64,000 nt of DNA from Oscillospiraceae bacterium. GTDB lineage: Bacteria; Bacillota; Clostridia; Oscillospirales; Acutalibacteraceae. The translations under genes were made by a program, and so were the position numbers. This document shows, piece after piece, positions 57,187-64,000 of the stretch. The stretch covers positions 1 to 64,000 of the forward strand of contig SVPH01000004.1 of assembly GCA_015065965.1 (NCBI GenBank), given 5' to 3'. The notes beneath the pieces are model-generated. The model had not been told where the DNA came from. It searched no databases and saw nothing but the letters and a program-made list of their open reading frames with translations. The stretch's first letter is position 1. Each line of letters starts with the position of its first letter.

Positions 57187-58413
57187 ATGAAAACAAAGGC
57201 TGCCAAACTCTTTTCGTGCTGTAAATATGAACTTATAATATTTGCCGTGCTGTTAATTCAGGCCGTATCAAATCTCTTTACATTCGGCGGAGTAGGCGAA
57301 TATACGAGCATTTATTATTTGTCGGATTACTCAATCGGAATAAACACCAGGCTTTTGGTTGGCTCAATAGTAGGTTTAATTAATGACAGCCCGACAATTG
57401 AGTGGATAACCGGTTTTGCAATTGTTGTTTTGGTGTTAACACTTTTGGCTGTTGCATTTTTGACAGGAAAGGTTATCCGCAACACTGATGATGAAATGAG
57501 ACCGCAACTTTATGTAATTATTGCATTTATGCTTTCCGGCTCTTTCACTTTTAGTTTCTTTTCAATTTTTCTTGGTTCACTTGACATTTATACATTTATT
57601 GTGGCAATGATAGCGGTTGTTTGCTCATTAAGCAAAAAAACGCGCTGGCTGGTTCCGATTCTTTGTGTAGTAGGTGTTTTAACTCACAATATTTTTGCGG
57701 TATCATACTTTCCTATGGTATTTCTTGTGTTGTTTTACCTTCTTTTAAAGGAAGACAGCAAGGTTTACAGCGCGGCTGTACTTGTAGTATCCTTAGTTGC
57801 GACTGTTGCCATTACAGTTAATTTTATGTTGTATGCCGGCAAAAACATGAACATTTCATTTGAAGAGTTCTGTAAAATAATAAATGAAAAAAGCAGCATT
57901 AAAATTGATGAATACGGTTTTTACGGAATAGGTTTCCATCTGTTTAGTATAGTCGGAGATGATGTTGTTGAGGGATTTACCATAGGAGAGCAATTCAACT
58001 TGACATTAGTTGAACTTATAAAAGGGCTTGTACAATATATAAGTTATTCAATGTCATTAGAGAATGCTTTGCCGATTCTTGTGGTATATGTTCTTATTTA
58101 TGGCGCTTTAATATTTATATGGGCAAAATGCGCGAAAAATTCCGAAACAAAAATGAAGAAACTGTCTTATATTGCATTTATGTTGGCTCCTTTGACGGCA
58201 TTAATAGGATTTGTGGTTACAACAGACTATGTGCGTTGGGTTCAAGCGGCGGTTCTGTCACAATTCGCTTTTGCTCTTGTTATGTATATTAAAAAAGACG
58301 AGGCGTTTTTCAAAACAATGCAGCAAATGCGCGAGTATTTCGGCAACAAGAAACTGATTTTGGTTGTTATTTATATAATTTACGCATTTACAACGAAAAG
58401 AACGATTGTTTAA
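57187..58413 (+). CDS. Polytopic membrane protein of unknown function
   Basis: 408 residues, about ten membrane helices. It has an ordered alternation of helix and short loops, with a larger loop around 240-285 (ISFEEFCKIINEKSSIKIDEY) outside the membrane. The general shape resembles EpsG/Wzy-type polysaccharide polymerases or glycolipid synthesis proteins, but no signature is visible. No signal peptide. GGTGG precedes the ATG. Read in line with the ABC genes but probably separate in function. Convergent with the SDR gene. Confidence 0.7.
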   Translation: MKTKAAKLFSCCKYELIIFAVLLIQAVSNLFTFGGVGEYTSIYYLSDYSIGINTRLLVGSIVGLINDSPTIEWITGFAIVVLVLTLLAVAFLTGKVIRNTDDEMRPQLYVIIAFMLSGSFTFSFFSIFLGSLDIYTFIVAMIAVVCSLSKKTRWLVPILCVVGVLTHNIFAVSYFPMVFLVLFYLLLKEDSKVYSAAVLVVSLVATVAITVNFMLYAGKNMNISFEEFCKIINEKSSIKIDEYGFYGIGFHLFSIVGDDVVEGFTIGEQFNLTLVELIKGLVQYISYSMSLENALPILVVYVLIYGALIFIWAKCAKNSETKMKKLSYIAFMLAPLTALIGFVVTTDYVRWVQAAVLSQFAFALVMYIKKDEAFFKTMQQMREYFGNKKLILVVIYIIYAFTTKRTIV

Positions 58414-58444: not shown

Positions 58445-59380
58445 TCAAATATTTGAGTATTGATCATTTTTAATTATCTGATATGCTTTTATAAGTTCTC
58501 GTATTCCGTCATCAAGTGAATATTCCGGCTTCCAACCCAGACTTTCTATTTTGTCGTTTGATACGATGTAGTTTCTTTTATCAGGGTCTTCTCCTATAGG
58601 AGCCTCAATATAGACGAATTTCGGAATAATGGCTTTGATTTTTTCGCAAAGTTCTAATTTTGAAAGGTTTGAATCGGAAAGACCGCAGTTATGTGTTCCG
58701 CCTTCCATTCTTTCAAAATTTTCAATCGCAAACCAAAATGCGTTTGCAGCATCTCTTACATGAAGGTAGTTGCGTTTGAAGTTGCCTTCAAAAACAACAA
58801 GAGTTCTGTCAAAAACCGCTCTGTAAACAAAATCGTTTACAAGCAGATCGGTTCTCATTCTCGATGAAGCACCGAAAAGCGTTGCAAACCTGAATGCAGT
58901 TGTTCCGCTTTCGCTTAAAACGGCGGCTTCTGCTTCAACCTTGCTTTTGCCATAAATTGAAATAGGATTTATAGGTGAATTTTCTGTGCAGAATTTTTCA
59001 CCTTCACCAAGGCCGTATCCGCTGTTAGTGCAAGGAAAGATAATTCGCTGACCTTTTTCTCTCAGGCGAAGAATCATCTTTATTGCGTCAAGGTTTATTG
59101 AATATGCAGAGCAAGCCTCTTTATCACAGATCGGGAACCCGGCAAGGGCTGCAAGAGGAATGATATAGTCTTTGTTCTTCATTGCTTCGCGAACAGCATT
59201 TTCGTTGCGTGCATCTGCATTTATCATTGTAAAATTCGGGTTTGCACAGCATTCAAGCAAAGGGCTTTGTTTATAAAAAAGATTGTCAAGCACCGTAACA
59301 CGGCATCCTTTTGACAAAAGAAGAGGTACAAGCACAGATCCTATGTATCCTGCACCGCCTGTAACGAGAATGTTAAGCAT
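58445..59380 (-). CDS. NAD-dependent epimerase/dehydratase (extended SDR)
   Basis: 311 residues. The Rossmann motif TGGAGYIGS is at residues 7-15 and the catalytic pair is Y143-x3-K147 in SIYGKSK, with PCTNSGYG just before. NAD-dependent epimerases of this shape act on nucleotide sugars. It is also close to the group of GDP/UDP-sugar 4,6-dehydratases and reductases. Position in a cell-surface-like cluster suggests a role in making a deoxy or amino sugar. Confidence 0.88.
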   Translation of the reverse strand: MLNILVTGGAGYIGSVLVPLLLSKGCRVTVLDNLFYKQSPLLECCANPNFTMINADARNENAVREAMKNKDYIIPLAALAGFPICDKEACSAYSINLDAIKMILRLREKGQRIIFPCTNSGYGLGEGEKFCTENSPINPISIYGKSKVEAEAAVLSESGTTAFRFATLFGASSRMRTDLLVNDFVYRAVFDRTLVVFEGNFKRNYLHVRDAANAFWFAIENFERMEGGTHNCGLSDSNLSKLELCEKIKAIIPKFVYIEAPIGEDPDKRNYIVSNDKIESLGWKPEYSLDDGIRELIKAYQIIKNDQYSNI

Positions 59381-59450: not shown

Positions 59451-59474
59451 ACGGTCACGCAATTTTTTCTTTTG

Positions 59475-59503
59475 TTGACACAAATTGTCATAGGCATTAT
59501 AAT
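59475..59503 (+). promoter_or_regulatory. Consensus promoter with palindromic -35 for membrane protein gene
   Basis: TTGACA (59475-59480) and TATAAT (59498-59503), 17-base spacer, both perfect. The -35 forms half of a TGACA-caaat-TGTCA inverted repeat, a possible repressor site. Confidence 0.85.
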
Positions 59504-59543
59504 AAATCAGTTGAATTCAATGAATAGGGGGCGCCCGATAAAA

Positions 59544-60431
59544 ATGTTGAAAAATATATCATGGGACACCAAAGATAAAATTAAGATTTCGTTGTTAATT
59601 TTTCTTGCGGTGGAAGGAAAGATGCTTTTTGAAACGGTAGAAATGGGACTAATCAGAACACCTGTTATTCTTATTGCGCTTGCAGCAGGAGCGGCTTTTA
59701 CTTTGTTTTTGCTGTTTAATATTACGGAAAAGAGTGTAAAATCGCTGTCTGCACAAGGCGTGTTTGTTGCGTTAACCGTTATTTTTGCTTTGGGTGCGCT
59801 GATAACATACAAATTTGTTTCAAAAGAAACACTTTTGGTTTTACTTTTGGCATCGATTATGGCTATTTGTGCGAAGAAACTTTATTTGTTACCCGTTGCT
59901 GTTGCGTTTGGTGTGGTGACGGTTTTCAATGTTTTTGGTGAAATACATGACTTTATCGGTCTGAGTTGTATCCCTGCGGTAATTGGTATTTCATGCGTTT
60001 GCCTCTCGTCAGAGATCAAACAGTCTTCAGTGTGGAAAAAAATTGTTTTTGCGGTGCTTGAATTAGCGTTGACAGCGTTGGCTGTTAAATCGTTTTATAA
60101 CCGTCGATTTACGATTTCGTTAGCATCGCTGTTCACACATGTGTGGGATACAATAGGTGTTTTTATTGCGGCTCTTATTTTTGTTGCACTTATAGTTTAT
60201 TCAGTTGTAAACAGTAAAAATATAATTGAGATTTTCGGATATACAGCGGTTGCTTTGTTTGGTATTGTTACAATGGCTATGGAATCCGTTCACGCACTTT
60301 CTTCAGCGATGACCATGTTTATGGTACTTGCTTCAGTCTCAAAAGAAGGCTCTTCGGCTGATATTGCTGCTGAAGAAGCATTGAAATCAATTGCATCTTT
60401 ATCAAAGAAGAGTAAAAAACGCAAAGCATAA
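59544..60431 (+). CDS. Polytopic membrane protein of unknown function
   Basis: 295 residues, about eight membrane helices and a basic C-terminal tail (SKKSKKRKA). It starts at ATG 59544, ten bases after AGGGGGCG; longer in-frame starts run through the promoter. Possible relation to 57187-58413 by shape only. A strong consensus promoter suggests it is well expressed. No family recognised. Confidence 0.7.
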   Translation: MLKNISWDTKDKIKISLLIFLAVEGKMLFETVEMGLIRTPVILIALAAGAAFTLFLLFNITEKSVKSLSAQGVFVALTVIFALGALITYKFVSKETLLVLLLASIMAICAKKLYLLPVAVAFGVVTVFNVFGEIHDFIGLSCIPAVIGISCVCLSSEIKQSSVWKKIVFAVLELALTALAVKSFYNRRFTISLASLFTHVWDTIGVFIAALIFVALIVYSVVNSKNIIEIFGYTAVALFGIVTMAMESVHALSSAMTMFMVLASVSKEGSSADIAAEEALKSIASLSKKSKKRKA

Positions 60432-60515: not shown

Positions 60516-60544
60516 TTGACTTGATTTTGATTATAGTATAAAAT
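60516..60544 (+). promoter_or_regulatory. Promoter for the B12 radical SAM cluster
   Basis: TTGACT (60516-60521) and TAAAAT (60539-60544), 17-base spacer, 55 bases before the first gene. Confidence 0.65.
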
Positions 60545-60598
60545 AATAAGAAGATTTATTTATAAAAAGCAAAATGCTGAACATATAGGTGATTAATA

Positions 60599-62074
60599 AT
60601 GAAAGTAATGCTTGTTAATCCGGCTCCTGAACGCTACACAAGAGCGCGCTGTGCTCCGCTGGGAGTTTTGTCGATTGCCAGTTATTTGGAGGCAAAAGGT
60701 CATACGGTTAAAGTTCTCAACAGACCCATAAAATCAACGAATATCAATGATGAACTTGATGAATTTAAACCTGATTTCATCGGGTGTTCTCTTTTGACAA
60801 ACTTGGCTGTAAGAGATTGCATCACTGTTTCAAAAGCGGCTAAAAAACGCGGAGTATGTGTTGTTTGGGGTGGTCCTTATGTGTCGGCTATACCCGAAAT
60901 TGTTCTTCAACTCGACTGTATTGATTTTATTTCGATAGGAGAGGGTGAAGAAACCTGGCTTGAACTTGTAAACACTGCCGAAGCAAACGGTGATCTGTAT
61001 TCAATCAAAGGTCTTGCTTACATTAAAGACGGAAAGTTTGTTAAAACCCCTGAAAGAGAATTTACAGATCTTTCAACACTCGCTCCGCTGAATTATGATC
61101 TTATTGATGCTCAGAAAACGCTCTATACAAACTATGATTATGACGGAATAATGGGCATGTACCTTTCAAAGGGTTGTACGGGCAGATGTACTTTCTGTTA
61201 TAATCACGATTTCCATAAGAGTTGTCGCCGTTCAAGACCTATTGAGGTCTTTATTCAGGAAGCAAAGACGGTTAAAGAAAAATATGGTGCAAAGGCAATT
61301 GCTCTTGCTGATGAACTTTTTGGATATGACAAAGAAACTCTTCGTGAATTTTGTGATGCCATGAACGAAGCAAACCTTGGCTTTCACTGGGGTGCTATGA
61401 CAAAAATCGGTATCTTTGACAGAGAAGATTTTCAGATGATGTATGATGCCGGCTGCCGTTGGCTTGAGTTTGGTGTTGAGAGCGGCGCCCAAACTACTCT
61501 TGGCAGAATGAAAAAGGGAATGAAACTCAGCAGGGTAGAGGAAGATTTACAGATATGTAAGGAAGTAGGCATTATAACTCTCTGTTATTTCATTGTCGGT
61601 TTTCCGGATGAAACAGAGGAGGAACTGAGAGAAACTTGCCGACTCGTTAATAAAATAGATTATACAAGATTTGTAAGTTCATATTTCAGCCCTCTTCCCG
61701 GATCTGAAATATTTGATAAACTTGTTGCTGAAGGCAGAATAAATCCGCCGAAAACAATGAAGGAAAGCATGAAGACGAAGATATTGTATTCGCCTCATCC
61801 GAATCTTTCAAATGTTAAAACGCTGGATCTCAAAGTAGTTCGTTCACACATGCTTTGGAGAAGTTTTACAAAGAAAAAATTTAACCAAAACGGTAAACTT
61901 AACTATGCAACTGCGAGAAAGGATATATATGACGTACTCAAAAGCCTTAAAGGTCATGGTTTTAAAAACGGCATTGAGCAGTTGTTCGTAAGCGGATATG
62001 AATTTTTGGATATTTTCTTTTATGCAAATTTCTTTCCTCGCATACTTAAAAAATATGAACTTAACAAGAAGTAA
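60599..62074 (+). CDS. B12-binding radical SAM protein, array member 1
   Basis: 491 residues. N-terminal cobalamin-binding-like domain (PAPERYTR, PLGVLSIASYL, EAKGHTVK, VVWGGPY, ISIGEGEETW), then the radical SAM core with CTGRCTFC (C193, C197, C200) and a C-terminal helical tail that ends GYEFLDIFFYANFFPRILKKY. B12-binding domains in such enzymes methylate or rearrange unreactive carbons. No DxHxxG lower-ligand motif is seen, so cobalamin would bind base-off without His, if bound. ATG follows AGGTGA. The reaction is unknown. Confidence 0.92.
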   Translation: MKVMLVNPAPERYTRARCAPLGVLSIASYLEAKGHTVKVLNRPIKSTNINDELDEFKPDFIGCSLLTNLAVRDCITVSKAAKKRGVCVVWGGPYVSAIPEIVLQLDCIDFISIGEGEETWLELVNTAEANGDLYSIKGLAYIKDGKFVKTPEREFTDLSTLAPLNYDLIDAQKTLYTNYDYDGIMGMYLSKGCTGRCTFCYNHDFHKSCRRSRPIEVFIQEAKTVKEKYGAKAIALADELFGYDKETLREFCDAMNEANLGFHWGAMTKIGIFDREDFQMMYDAGCRWLEFGVESGAQTTLGRMKKGMKLSRVEEDLQICKEVGIITLCYFIVGFPDETEEELRETCRLVNKIDYTRFVSSYFSPLPGSEIFDKLVAEGRINPPKTMKESMKTKILYSPHPNLSNVKTLDLKVVRSHMLWRSFTKKKFNQNGKLNYATARKDIYDVLKSLKGHGFKNGIEQLFVSGYEFLDIFFYANFFPRILKKYELNKK

Positions 62075-62100
62075 ACTCATCTGACAGAAAGGAAATAGCG

Positions 62101-63576
62101 ATGAGGGTTTTATTTGTTAACCCGTCCATGGAGCGCTACACGCGTCAACTCGGTTTTCCGCTTGGACTGGTTTCAATTGCAACTTATCTTAAAGCAAACG
62201 GACATACCGTTAAAATTATTGACAGAACAATAAAAACAACGAACATACGCAAAGAGATTGAATCGTTTGCTCCGGATGTGGTTGGTGTTTCCGTTATCTC
62301 AACGAAGTCATTCAGAGATGCTGAAAAGATATCGCTTGCAGCAAAAAAATACGGCGCAAAAGTTGTGTGGGGCGGAATATTTGCTTCACTTGATACGGAG
62401 TTTATATATAACAACATAGATATTGATTTTATTTCAATCGGTGAAGGTGAGGCGACTTGGCTTGACCTTGTAAATACGCTTGAAAACGGAGGCGACCCCA
62501 CTAAAGTTGCGGGTCTTGCATATAAAAAGAACGGCAAGGTTGTTTTTACACAGCAGAGAGATTTTATTGATCTTGCATTGCTTCCGCCCATGGATTTTAC
62601 GCTTATTGATGTTGATAAGTACTTAGGCCCTATGTACGGATGCAAGAAAACAGCGCTTCTCTATATGTCCAAAGGCTGTTTCGGAGATTGTTCGTTCTGC
62701 TTCAACAAGGAGTTTCACCGTCGGTGTTACAGAATGCGTCCGGTTGAAACATTTCTGGAAGAGGTCAGATATCTTGTTGATAATCACGGCGTTGACTGCA
62801 TTTATCTTGCGGATGAACTTTGGTGCAGAAACAGAAATGAGATGCTTTATCAGTGCAAGGCATTTAAAGAGTCCGGCATAAATTTTAAATGGGGAATTGA
62901 AACACGAATCGGTATTTTTGAAAAAGAAGATTTTGAAATTATGAAAGATGCAGGTTGCATCTGGATAACATTTGGTGTTGAAACGGGTTCACGCTCGATG
63001 CTAAAAACTATCAACAAAGGCATTCCTTACGATAAAATTGATCAGACTTTCAAGGACTGCAAAGCGGTTGATATTGTTTCACTTGCTAATTTTATTATCG
63101 GTTTTCCTGATGAAACCGAGGAGCAATTGAGGGAAACGATTGATATGGCAATGCGCATCGAATCTACACAAAGGACATTCTTTTTCTTTATGCCCGGTCC
63201 GGGTTCAAAACTATATAACGAACTTGTGGCGAGCGGAAGGTATACTCCGCCAAAAACATTTAAAGAGTATACCAATGTACAGTTTTACTATTCGCCAAAG
63301 CCCAATTTTTCTAAAATTCCTTCCAAAGAACTTAAAGCGATAAGATCGTATTTTTTGTGGAAAGGATTTTCAAGAAAATATTTTTCTCAAACAGCGCGAA
63401 CTTATGATATAGCAAAAAAAGATATAGTTGATGTTTTAAAGCAGTTTAAGGGTCATGATCTTCGCTTTGCAATCCAACTTATTCTTATTTCGGCTTATGA
63501 GTTTCTCGATATTTTTTGTTATGCGCATTTTTGTCCGTCGGTATATAAAAAATATAATCTGAAAGTGGACGAATAA
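62101..63576 (+). CDS. B12-binding radical SAM protein, array member 2
   Basis: 491 residues, the same length as member 1. The same motifs lie at the same positions: PSMERYTR, PLGLVSIATYL, VVWGGIF, CFGDCSFC (C193, C197, C200), IGFPDETEE and the end SAYEFLDIFCYAHFCPSVYKKY. The two clearly arose by tandem duplication but have diverged. ATG follows AGAAAGGAAAT. It lies 26 bases after member 1 and is surely co-transcribed. Its role may be a second step on the same product or a second substrate. Confidence 0.92.
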   Translation: MRVLFVNPSMERYTRQLGFPLGLVSIATYLKANGHTVKIIDRTIKTTNIRKEIESFAPDVVGVSVISTKSFRDAEKISLAAKKYGAKVVWGGIFASLDTEFIYNNIDIDFISIGEGEATWLDLVNTLENGGDPTKVAGLAYKKNGKVVFTQQRDFIDLALLPPMDFTLIDVDKYLGPMYGCKKTALLYMSKGCFGDCSFCFNKEFHRRCYRMRPVETFLEEVRYLVDNHGVDCIYLADELWCRNRNEMLYQCKAFKESGINFKWGIETRIGIFEKEDFEIMKDAGCIWITFGVETGSRSMLKTINKGIPYDKIDQTFKDCKAVDIVSLANFIIGFPDETEEQLRETIDMAMRIESTQRTFFFFMPGPGSKLYNELVASGRYTPPKTFKEYTNVQFYYSPKPNFSKIPSKELKAIRSYFLWKGFSRKYFSQTARTYDIAKKDIVDVLKQFKGHDLRFAIQLILISAYEFLDIFCYAHFCPSVYKKYNLKVDE

Positions 63577-63598
63577 CTTTTAGTGAGTTGAATAAAAA

Positions 63599-64000
63599 AT
63601 GAGGATTATTTTGATTAACCCTGCAACCGTAGGGTATTCAAGGTCTGTTACAACGCCGCTCGGACTTTTATCCATAGCGAGTTGTTTACAGGCTAAAGGT
63701 CACAAAGTAAGACTTTATGACAGAACGGTTGAAAAGGCAAAATTAGAAAATGTCTTCAGGGATTTTTCGCCTGAACTTGTCGGTGTTTCATTGGTTTCAT
63801 TTAAGTCTGTTCATGATGCATTGGCTGTTTCCGAGTATGCCAAGGGATTTTCTCTTCCCGTTGTTTGGGGAGGTCCGCTGGCATCTGAAATTCCCGATGC
63901 GGTTTTAAAAAATAACTGTGTTGATCTTGTTTCAATAGGCGAGGGCGAGGCAACATGGGTTGAGATTGCAGAAATATATCAGAATAGAGGTGCTGATTTT
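63599..64000 (+). CDS. B12-binding radical SAM protein, array member 3, cut by window edge
   Basis: First 134 residues only. ATG 63599 begins MRIILINPATVGYSRSV, then PLGLLSIASCLQAKGHKV, VVWGGPL and VSIGEGEATWVE, the same N-terminal domain as members 1 and 2. The CxxxCxxC cluster lies beyond the edge, so its radical SAM domain is inferred from homology. A weak ribosome site (GTGAGTTG) precedes it, 23 bases after member 2. Confidence 0.8.
   Translation, partial: MRIILINPATVGYSRSVTTPLGLLSIASCLQAKGHKVRLYDRTVEKAKLENVFRDFSPELVGVSLVSFKSVHDALAVSEYAKGFSLPVVWGGPLASEIPDAVLKNNCVDLVSIGEGEATWVEIAEIYQNRGADF

Follow-up and report, generated by a model that had tools for sequence, protein, structure and literature searches.

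The array and its enzymes

The window analysed here is a stretch of 64,000 nucleotides from a draft Oscillospiraceae genome (G000), namely positions 1–64000 of contig SVPH01000004.1, whose coordinates continue the window numbering. At its right edge begins an array of three genes, A, B and C, for B12-binding radical S-adenosylmethionine (SAM) enzymes, lying in an island of 24 kb (contig 57187–81128) together with genes resembling those for GDP-heptose synthesis. A (60599–62074, 491 residues), B (62101–63576, 491 residues) and C (63599–65086, 495 residues; the window stops inside it) are complete open reading frames (ORFs) running head to tail on the plus strand across 60599–65086, with intergenic gaps of 26 bp (A–B) and 22 bp (B–C) and pairwise identities of 47% (A–B), 43% (B–C) and 40% (A–C). 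The initial annotation, made from the window alone, had proposed at least three tandem paralogues; extension of the contig to the right bore this out, completing C, fixing the array at exactly three members and revealing beyond it six more radical SAM genes on the opposite strand, a GT2 glycosyltransferase gene, an HddC–GmhB fusion and an HddA-like kinase gene.

The motifs described in that annotation were all found. CxxxCxxC begins at residue 193 in both 491-residue proteins (195 in C), and EFLDIF stands near the C-terminus at 468 in A and 467 in B, where C reads EFLSIV. C, described as sharing the N-terminal domain and leaving the window, matches the B12-binding domain PF02310 at 63.3 bits (A, 63.0; B, 76.4), all three above the Pfam cut-off of 32.1, and the Pfam cut-off for Radical_SAM is likewise passed by each. 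Among 41 A-family proteins compared, A, B and C included, every one keeps CxxxCxxC (the set leaves out proteins under 430 residues, with one truncated entry kept, those below 26% identity and identical copies). A, B and C belong by these features to the cobalamin-dependent radical SAM superfamily; cobalamin binding and methyl transfer are predicted. None reaches an NCBIfam equivalog cut-off, the best scores being 172.9 of 481 for BchE (B), 144.6 of 360 for TIGR04014 (A), 140 of 577.6 for HpnJ (C) and at most 91.7 of 650 for HpnR (A, B and C). Equivalence to BchE, HpnR, HpnJ or MgmA was rejected on scores under these cut-offs.

Structural comparison of A points to no one function, the Z scores being 30.4 to AprD4, 29.1 to MgmA, 27.8 to OxsB and 27.6 to TsrM. 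AprD4, a 1,2-diol dehydratase, is 19% identical to A, and MgmA, the glutamine C-methylase of methyl-coenzyme M reductase, is 22% identical and catalyses a different reaction. A, B and C might be non-methylating enzymes that, like AprD4, perform some other radical step on a sugar, such as dehydration, epimerisation or oxidation. We consider this quite unlikely: the methylase MgmA scores close behind AprD4 and is the top match of A in Foldseek, and the B12-binding domain exceeds its cut-off in all three proteins. Methylation is the commonest chemistry in this enzyme class, according to the accessible part of PMC13142503, and this favours the methylation of a lipid or glycan that the initial annotation offered as a possible role.

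The proposal that the array is read from one promoter was not substantiated. Upstream of A, TTGACT-17-TAAAAT (60516–60544, plus strand) matches the sigma-70 consensus at 10 of 12 positions, but four sites of this kind occur in the stretch against 4.3 in shuffled sequence, which is not above chance. No cobalamin riboswitch was matched by Rfam at the gathering score in 98 kb from five loci.

Six further radical SAM genes on the opposite strand

The minus-strand radical SAM genes start 42 bp past C and reach 77451. They comprise D611 (65129–66964), the TokK-like K1 (67723–69648), E610 (69681–71513) and the TokK/KedN5-like K2 (71528 to about 73450), K3 (73443–75380) and K4 (75541–77451), with the GT2 gene (66961–67707) between D611 and K1 on the same strand. 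In all, nine of the 37 Radical_SAM matches of the genome fall within 17 kb (60.6–77.5 kb). The best match of GT2 in the PDB is dolichyl-phosphate mannose synthase (E = 2e-6), and in 20 of 21 cases a radical SAM gene directly adjoins GT2.

K1, which stood for the K enzymes in the alignment to TokK and in the NCBIfam and Pfam scans, aligns over most of TokK (residues 21–588 on TokK 21–610, E = 9.5e-100) and less closely with CysS (2e-46). All 101 K proteins compared (those under 600 residues, those below 30% identity and identical copies left out) keep the three cysteines and, at position 76 of K1, the tryptophan corresponding to the lower-face Trp76 of TokK. Unlike the C-methylases TokK, CysS and KedN5, the K enzymes have sugar-nucleotide and glycosyl-transfer genes for neighbours, and K1 scores 257.4 against the KedN5 cut-off of 700. 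Its B12-binding score of 30.2 bits lies just under the Pfam cut-off of 32.1, and D611 has no Pfam B12-binding match, so that cobalamin use by the D, E and K enzymes is predicted from homology.

The D and E proteins share a Cx4CxxC motif (12 of 12), and their best NCBIfam models are PhpK and TIGR03975, a C-methyltransferase of ribosomally synthesized and post-translationally modified peptides (RiPPs), both below cut-off. The TIGR03975 scores of 118 and 127 bits, against a cut-off of 281.85, would suit a cluster whose enzymes C-methylate a ribosomal peptide. This seems very improbable to us, as there is little room for a precursor gene (of the 17 intergenic gaps in the island 12 are shorter than 45 bp and the largest measures 167 bp, with the start of the membrane-protein gene TMb taken as 59541), and among the genes scanned no peptide-maturation gene besides the radical SAM genes was recognised.

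GDP-heptose-like genes and membrane proteins

Beyond K4 the minus strand continues with the HddC–GmhB fusion (77454 to about 78800), a cupin gene (about 78709–79077), the HddA-like kinase gene (79172–80152) and a 2-hydroxyacid dehydrogenase gene (80166–81128); the top NCBIfam models for the kinase and the fusion are those of HddA, HddC and GmhB. The far end of this heptose island lies in the window and consists of the genes for two membrane proteins, TMa and TMb, and between them a minus-strand gene (58445–59380) for a short-chain dehydrogenase/reductase (SDR). The initial annotation had called this neighbour sugar epimerase-like. The link to sugars stands; the identity can be sharpened, since the protein matches Cj1427 (PDB 6vo6) over residues 3–310, its full length (E = 1.4e-105, 355.8 bits; next PDB match, 1.7e-24), and keeps the YxxxK site, with YGKSK aligned to YGIDK of Cj1427. 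We predict that it is a GDP-D-glycero-D-manno-heptose C4-dehydrogenase.

In Campylobacter jejuni, according to the accessible text of PMC10680097, Cj1427 uses 2-oxoglutarate to oxidise GDP-D-glycero-D-manno-heptose at C4 in a ping-pong reaction, with GmhA, HddA and GmhB acting before it; that text names no radical SAM enzyme. With this capsular heptose pathway (GmhA, HddA, GmhB, HddC, Cj1427) the island has in common kinase, guanylyltransferase and phosphatase genes of like name, along with a predicted C4-dehydrogenase that matches Cj1427 over its full length. It differs in that HddC and GmhB are fused and in that neither a C3/C5 epimerase nor a C4 reductase of Campylobacter type was recognised in it.

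TMa (57187–58413, plus strand) is a polytopic membrane protein of 408 residues, with homologues (median 9 hydrophobic segments) in 18 of 43 clustered loci; TMb (59520–60431, plus strand), of about 300 residues, has homologues (median 8 segments) in 9 of the 43 and no Pfam match. Among 11 TMa homologues scanned, GT87 matches the window's TMa itself (E = 0.0021, 18.3 bits against a cut-off of 25), DUF6057 matches three (best, 0.0026) and TgpA_N matches one (0.00095). Fold prediction of TMa from a four-sequence alignment was unsuccessful (predicted local distance difference test score, 43.6), and we treat the protein as a weak candidate for a GT-C glycosyltransferase using a polyprenyl-phosphate sugar. 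Between the Cj1427-like gene and TMb lies a perfect 12/12 sigma-70 consensus promoter (59475–59503); because it overlaps the TTG at 59472 from which the TMb ORF was listed, the start of TMb probably lies downstream, at 59520 or 59544.

Conservation of the island in related genomes

The island occupies the same flanks in the window's genome and in eight congeners (G002, G008, G011, G017, G020, G022, G023 and G028). On the TMa side we take the flank to be a gene for an ABC-transporter ATPase; on the other, next to the dehydrogenase gene or A–B, we take it to be genes for a membrane protein and a galactokinase-like protein, the latter lying outside the stretch fetched for G017. The smallest islands (G002 and G022) consist of the dehydrogenase, HddA, cupin, HddC–GmhB, K4, TMb, Cj1427-like and TMa genes; others add K, D, E, GT2 and A–B–C genes, up to eleven radical SAM genes in G023. 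The Cj1427-like protein is 89–94% identical in 12 congeners and 65–67% identical in four further ones (G004, G007, G010 and G031), which carry a second form of the island, with HddA 45–48% identical to that of the window and K4 still near.

Of the 19 HddC–GmhB ORFs, 14 directly adjoin or overlap K4 in the same orientation (−83 to 45 bp between the two), four have K4 at most three genes away, together with a Cj1427-like gene and HddA, and one lacks it. Across 36 congeners, all 16 with a Cj1427-like gene have K-type enzymes (found in 19 overall), and a Cj1427-like gene is likewise present in each of the 13 that have a strong A-family match (best E ≤ 1e-70); Fisher tests of these co-occurrences, which ignore kinship and genome incompleteness, give 1e-7 and 2e-7, respectively. 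At two loci (L042 and L043) a C-type gene is immediately preceded by TMa-like, small membrane-protein, SDR and HddA-like genes.

The three K-positive congeners that lack a Cj1427-like gene (G013, G030 and G033) encode a large HddA-cluster protein near their K genes (L085, L089 and L086, respectively); that of G013, the one scanned, combines fucose pyrophosphorylase and GHMP kinase domains. These clusters are perhaps the same machinery directed at another GDP sugar. Next to the Cj1427-like gene of G014 is a short C-terminal A-family fragment whose frame contains a stop (L083 2133–2600), perhaps the remnant of a lost member.

Histories of the array genes

In a tree of the 41 A-family proteins, A (seven sequences) and B (nine) form two fully supported clades that are sisters (support 97/89). 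B follows A on the same strand, with a gap of −4 to 26 bp, in six of the seven genomes with A; in the seventh the two are divergent and 253 bp apart. C comes directly after B on that strand in three of the seven. We read A and B as old sister lineages, and A, B and C as three old separate enzymes. The K lineages appear old as well: in a tree of the 101 K proteins built by a quick method, K3 and K5 form single groups and the other four multi-sequence groups need 2–5 label changes.

Were the array a recent duplication or an assembly artefact with no shared function, the draft state of the genome (56 contigs, 86% complete) might account for it. This is hardly credible given that A, B and C are only 40–47% identical and fall into separate clades across genomes, and that A and B stay adjacent on one strand in the six genomes, metagenome-assembled genomes (MAGs) from goat, roe deer and buffalo among them. 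Recent tandem duplication is refuted by the A-family tree together with the conserved gene order.

The A–B pair seems to move as a cassette. In G023 and RGIG2077 it occupies the opposite end of the island; G008 and RGIG4510 have it in a second cluster of radical SAM genes, and in RGIG4537 its neighbours carry no island label. Island-type genes occur in the fetched stretch around five of seven A proteins, six of nine B proteins and all three closest C proteins; A-, B- and C-type genes are looser guests of the island than its core.

A possible line for modified heptose

Homology shows that GDP-heptose-like synthesis genes and a Cj1427-like gene share one island with radical SAM enzymes, and a link of the island and K4 to a GDP-heptose-like sugar is probable. 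Support for the heptose link is good in the case of K4 and weaker for A–C; that the sugar is methylated we infer. The HddA-like kinase, the HddC–GmhB fusion and a GmhA-like isomerase encoded elsewhere in the genome (contig C33) could make GDP-D-glycero-D-manno-heptose, which the Cj1427-like enzyme would oxidise at C4. K4, of TokK/KedN5 type and encoded beside HddC–GmhB, and after it the remaining K, D/E and A/B/C enzymes might act serially, adding methyl groups (or making other radical changes) at unactivated carbons of the heptose or of a lipid-linked glycoside. GT2, resembling dolichyl-phosphate mannose synthase, would load the sugar onto polyprenyl phosphate, and TMa would pass it, outside the membrane, into a glycolipid or glycan of the surface. 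The reading as a whole, in which the A–C, K and D/E enzymes radically alter heptose or a lipid-linked glycoside in a modified-heptose island serving a surface glycan, is a tentative proposal that falls somewhat short of probable; our confidence in it was lowered by a small step because many relatives of A, B and C lie elsewhere.

Several observations weigh against this proposal. The sugar genes all score under NCBIfam curated cut-offs (HddA, 132 of 600; HddC, 182 of 300; GmhB, 148 of 149.6; the GmhA-like gene, 131 of 276), and the GT-C label of TMa is one weak match amid other weak matches. In two genomes with a Cj1427-like gene and K enzymes (G006 and G014; 81 and 76% complete), HddA goes unmatched and the fusion is represented by its HddC half only. 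The idea of a shared pathway for A, B and C, put forward in the initial annotation, gains from their place in one sugar-linked locus that also takes in the neighbouring SDR and membrane-protein genes and has GDP-heptose-like genes at its other end; it loses in that A and B are sisters in the tree but C falls in another branch and, in G023, lies about 17.5 kb away from them. Only 21 of the 41 A-family proteins have an island-type gene in the stretch fetched (5–21 kb) and 20 have none, such genes being absent near A, B and C of RGIG4537 and near B of record L045.

Also on this side, genes for a phytoene-desaturase-like (CrtI-like) flavoprotein and a ferredoxin-like 2Fe-2S reductase stand among or near radical SAM genes, by K genes, in three of the 43 loci (L030 13677–16276; L029 8905–11477; L076 3–2118), where a lipid or pigment-like substrate fits better than a sugar. 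The radical SAM enzymes might accordingly serve to construct or methylate an aglycone, be it a lipid, a polyprenyl or a secreted compound, with heptose merely the sugar attached to it. Such a role would also suit the resemblance of GT2 to a polyprenyl-phosphate sugar synthase, the pantetheine-bound, non-sugar ligands that the accessible accounts of the TokK and CysS structures describe, and a C-terminal segment of A, B and C that is apolar and rich in aromatic residues and whose best 19-residue mean hydropathy (1.00, 1.58 and 1.24, respectively) is not clearly above the rest of A. Yet the oxidase and reductase genes are confined to those three loci, the smallest islands hold only sugar-type genes, the dehydrogenase, the membrane proteins and K4, and no polyketide synthase or non-ribosomal peptide synthetase gene was recognised among the island genes scanned, which cover part of the island. 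We regard an aglycone substrate as possible, if on the unlikely side.

If the modified-heptose proposal is true, the branched sugars would be species-specific, since a constant core is joined by a radical SAM set that differs from species to species. Speculatively, and unlikely in its full extent, the island might encode a modular series of between one and eleven radical SAM enzymes of cobalamin type that act on a lipid-linked heptose to give a heavily C-methylated, branched or chain-extended sugar on the surface of ruminant-gut Clostridia, its set reshuffled between species as a form of surface variation. The concentration of nine radical SAM genes within 17 kb, next to GDP-heptose-like genes, would suggest a surface glycan whose methyl branches are carbon-bound, chemistry that one hardly expects in such a place. 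It would also imply a large B12 demand in gut bacteria that may need to import the vitamin, no CobS match being found in the window's genome (86% complete). The paralogues form a natural set in which to ask what determines the site of radical methylation.

Antibiotic pathways are the main known source of cobalamin radical SAM methylases, with one to a few in each. GenK, GenD1 and MoeK5 act at sugar carbons, that of MoeK5 in a phosphoglycolipid, and the gentamicin and moenomycin pathways have one or two such enzymes each. The island differs from these in its nine radical SAM enzymes. The accessible part of PMC8992657 gives GenK and GenD1 (gentamicin) and MoeK5 (moenomycin) as cobalamin radical SAM methylases. 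The enzyme families of the island are known and their combination is new to the literature searched; it was not found in open-access sources, in so far as their text was accessible, which is no proof of absence.

Distribution and further relatives

We searched 60 genomes, comprising the window's own, 36 of its genus and 23 others of its order. K-type enzymes (E ≤ 1e-30) occur in 20, the Cj1427-like gene (1e-25) in 17 and HddA (1e-20) in 15, the window's genome counted and all within its genus; strong A-family matches, by the threshold given above, occur in that genome and 13 congeners. Across 394 genomes of the order, in which the first few candidates per genome were scored, A and the Cj1427-like gene (1e-60 each) were found in the window's genome only and K4 (E ≤ 1e-40) in two, that genome and G273, of another genus of the family. 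The neighbours of K4 in G273 are a TMa-like gene (23% identity), another gene without a label, and glycosyltransferase-like and nucleotidyltransferase-like genes (labels assigned partly by reading).

Close relatives of A, at 65% identity or more, were found in five of 15 contig loci, all in Clostridia MAGs, four of which have sample titles naming goat, roe deer or water buffalo gut. A fourth A-family member of the window's genome, A2 (36% identical to A), stands alone on contig C7 (L025 9263–10750); the gene two places on presumably encodes an alpha-L-fucosidase-like protein. The same genome has a pair of TokK-type radical SAM genes outside the island, K5 and K6 (contig C52, 46860–50993). On contig C2 of G273 (L101 9520–12299), a K5-type gene (63% identity) is directly followed by a GT2-like gene, and the pair comes after a run of genes that, by reading, resemble those for glycosyltransferases and ABC exporters.

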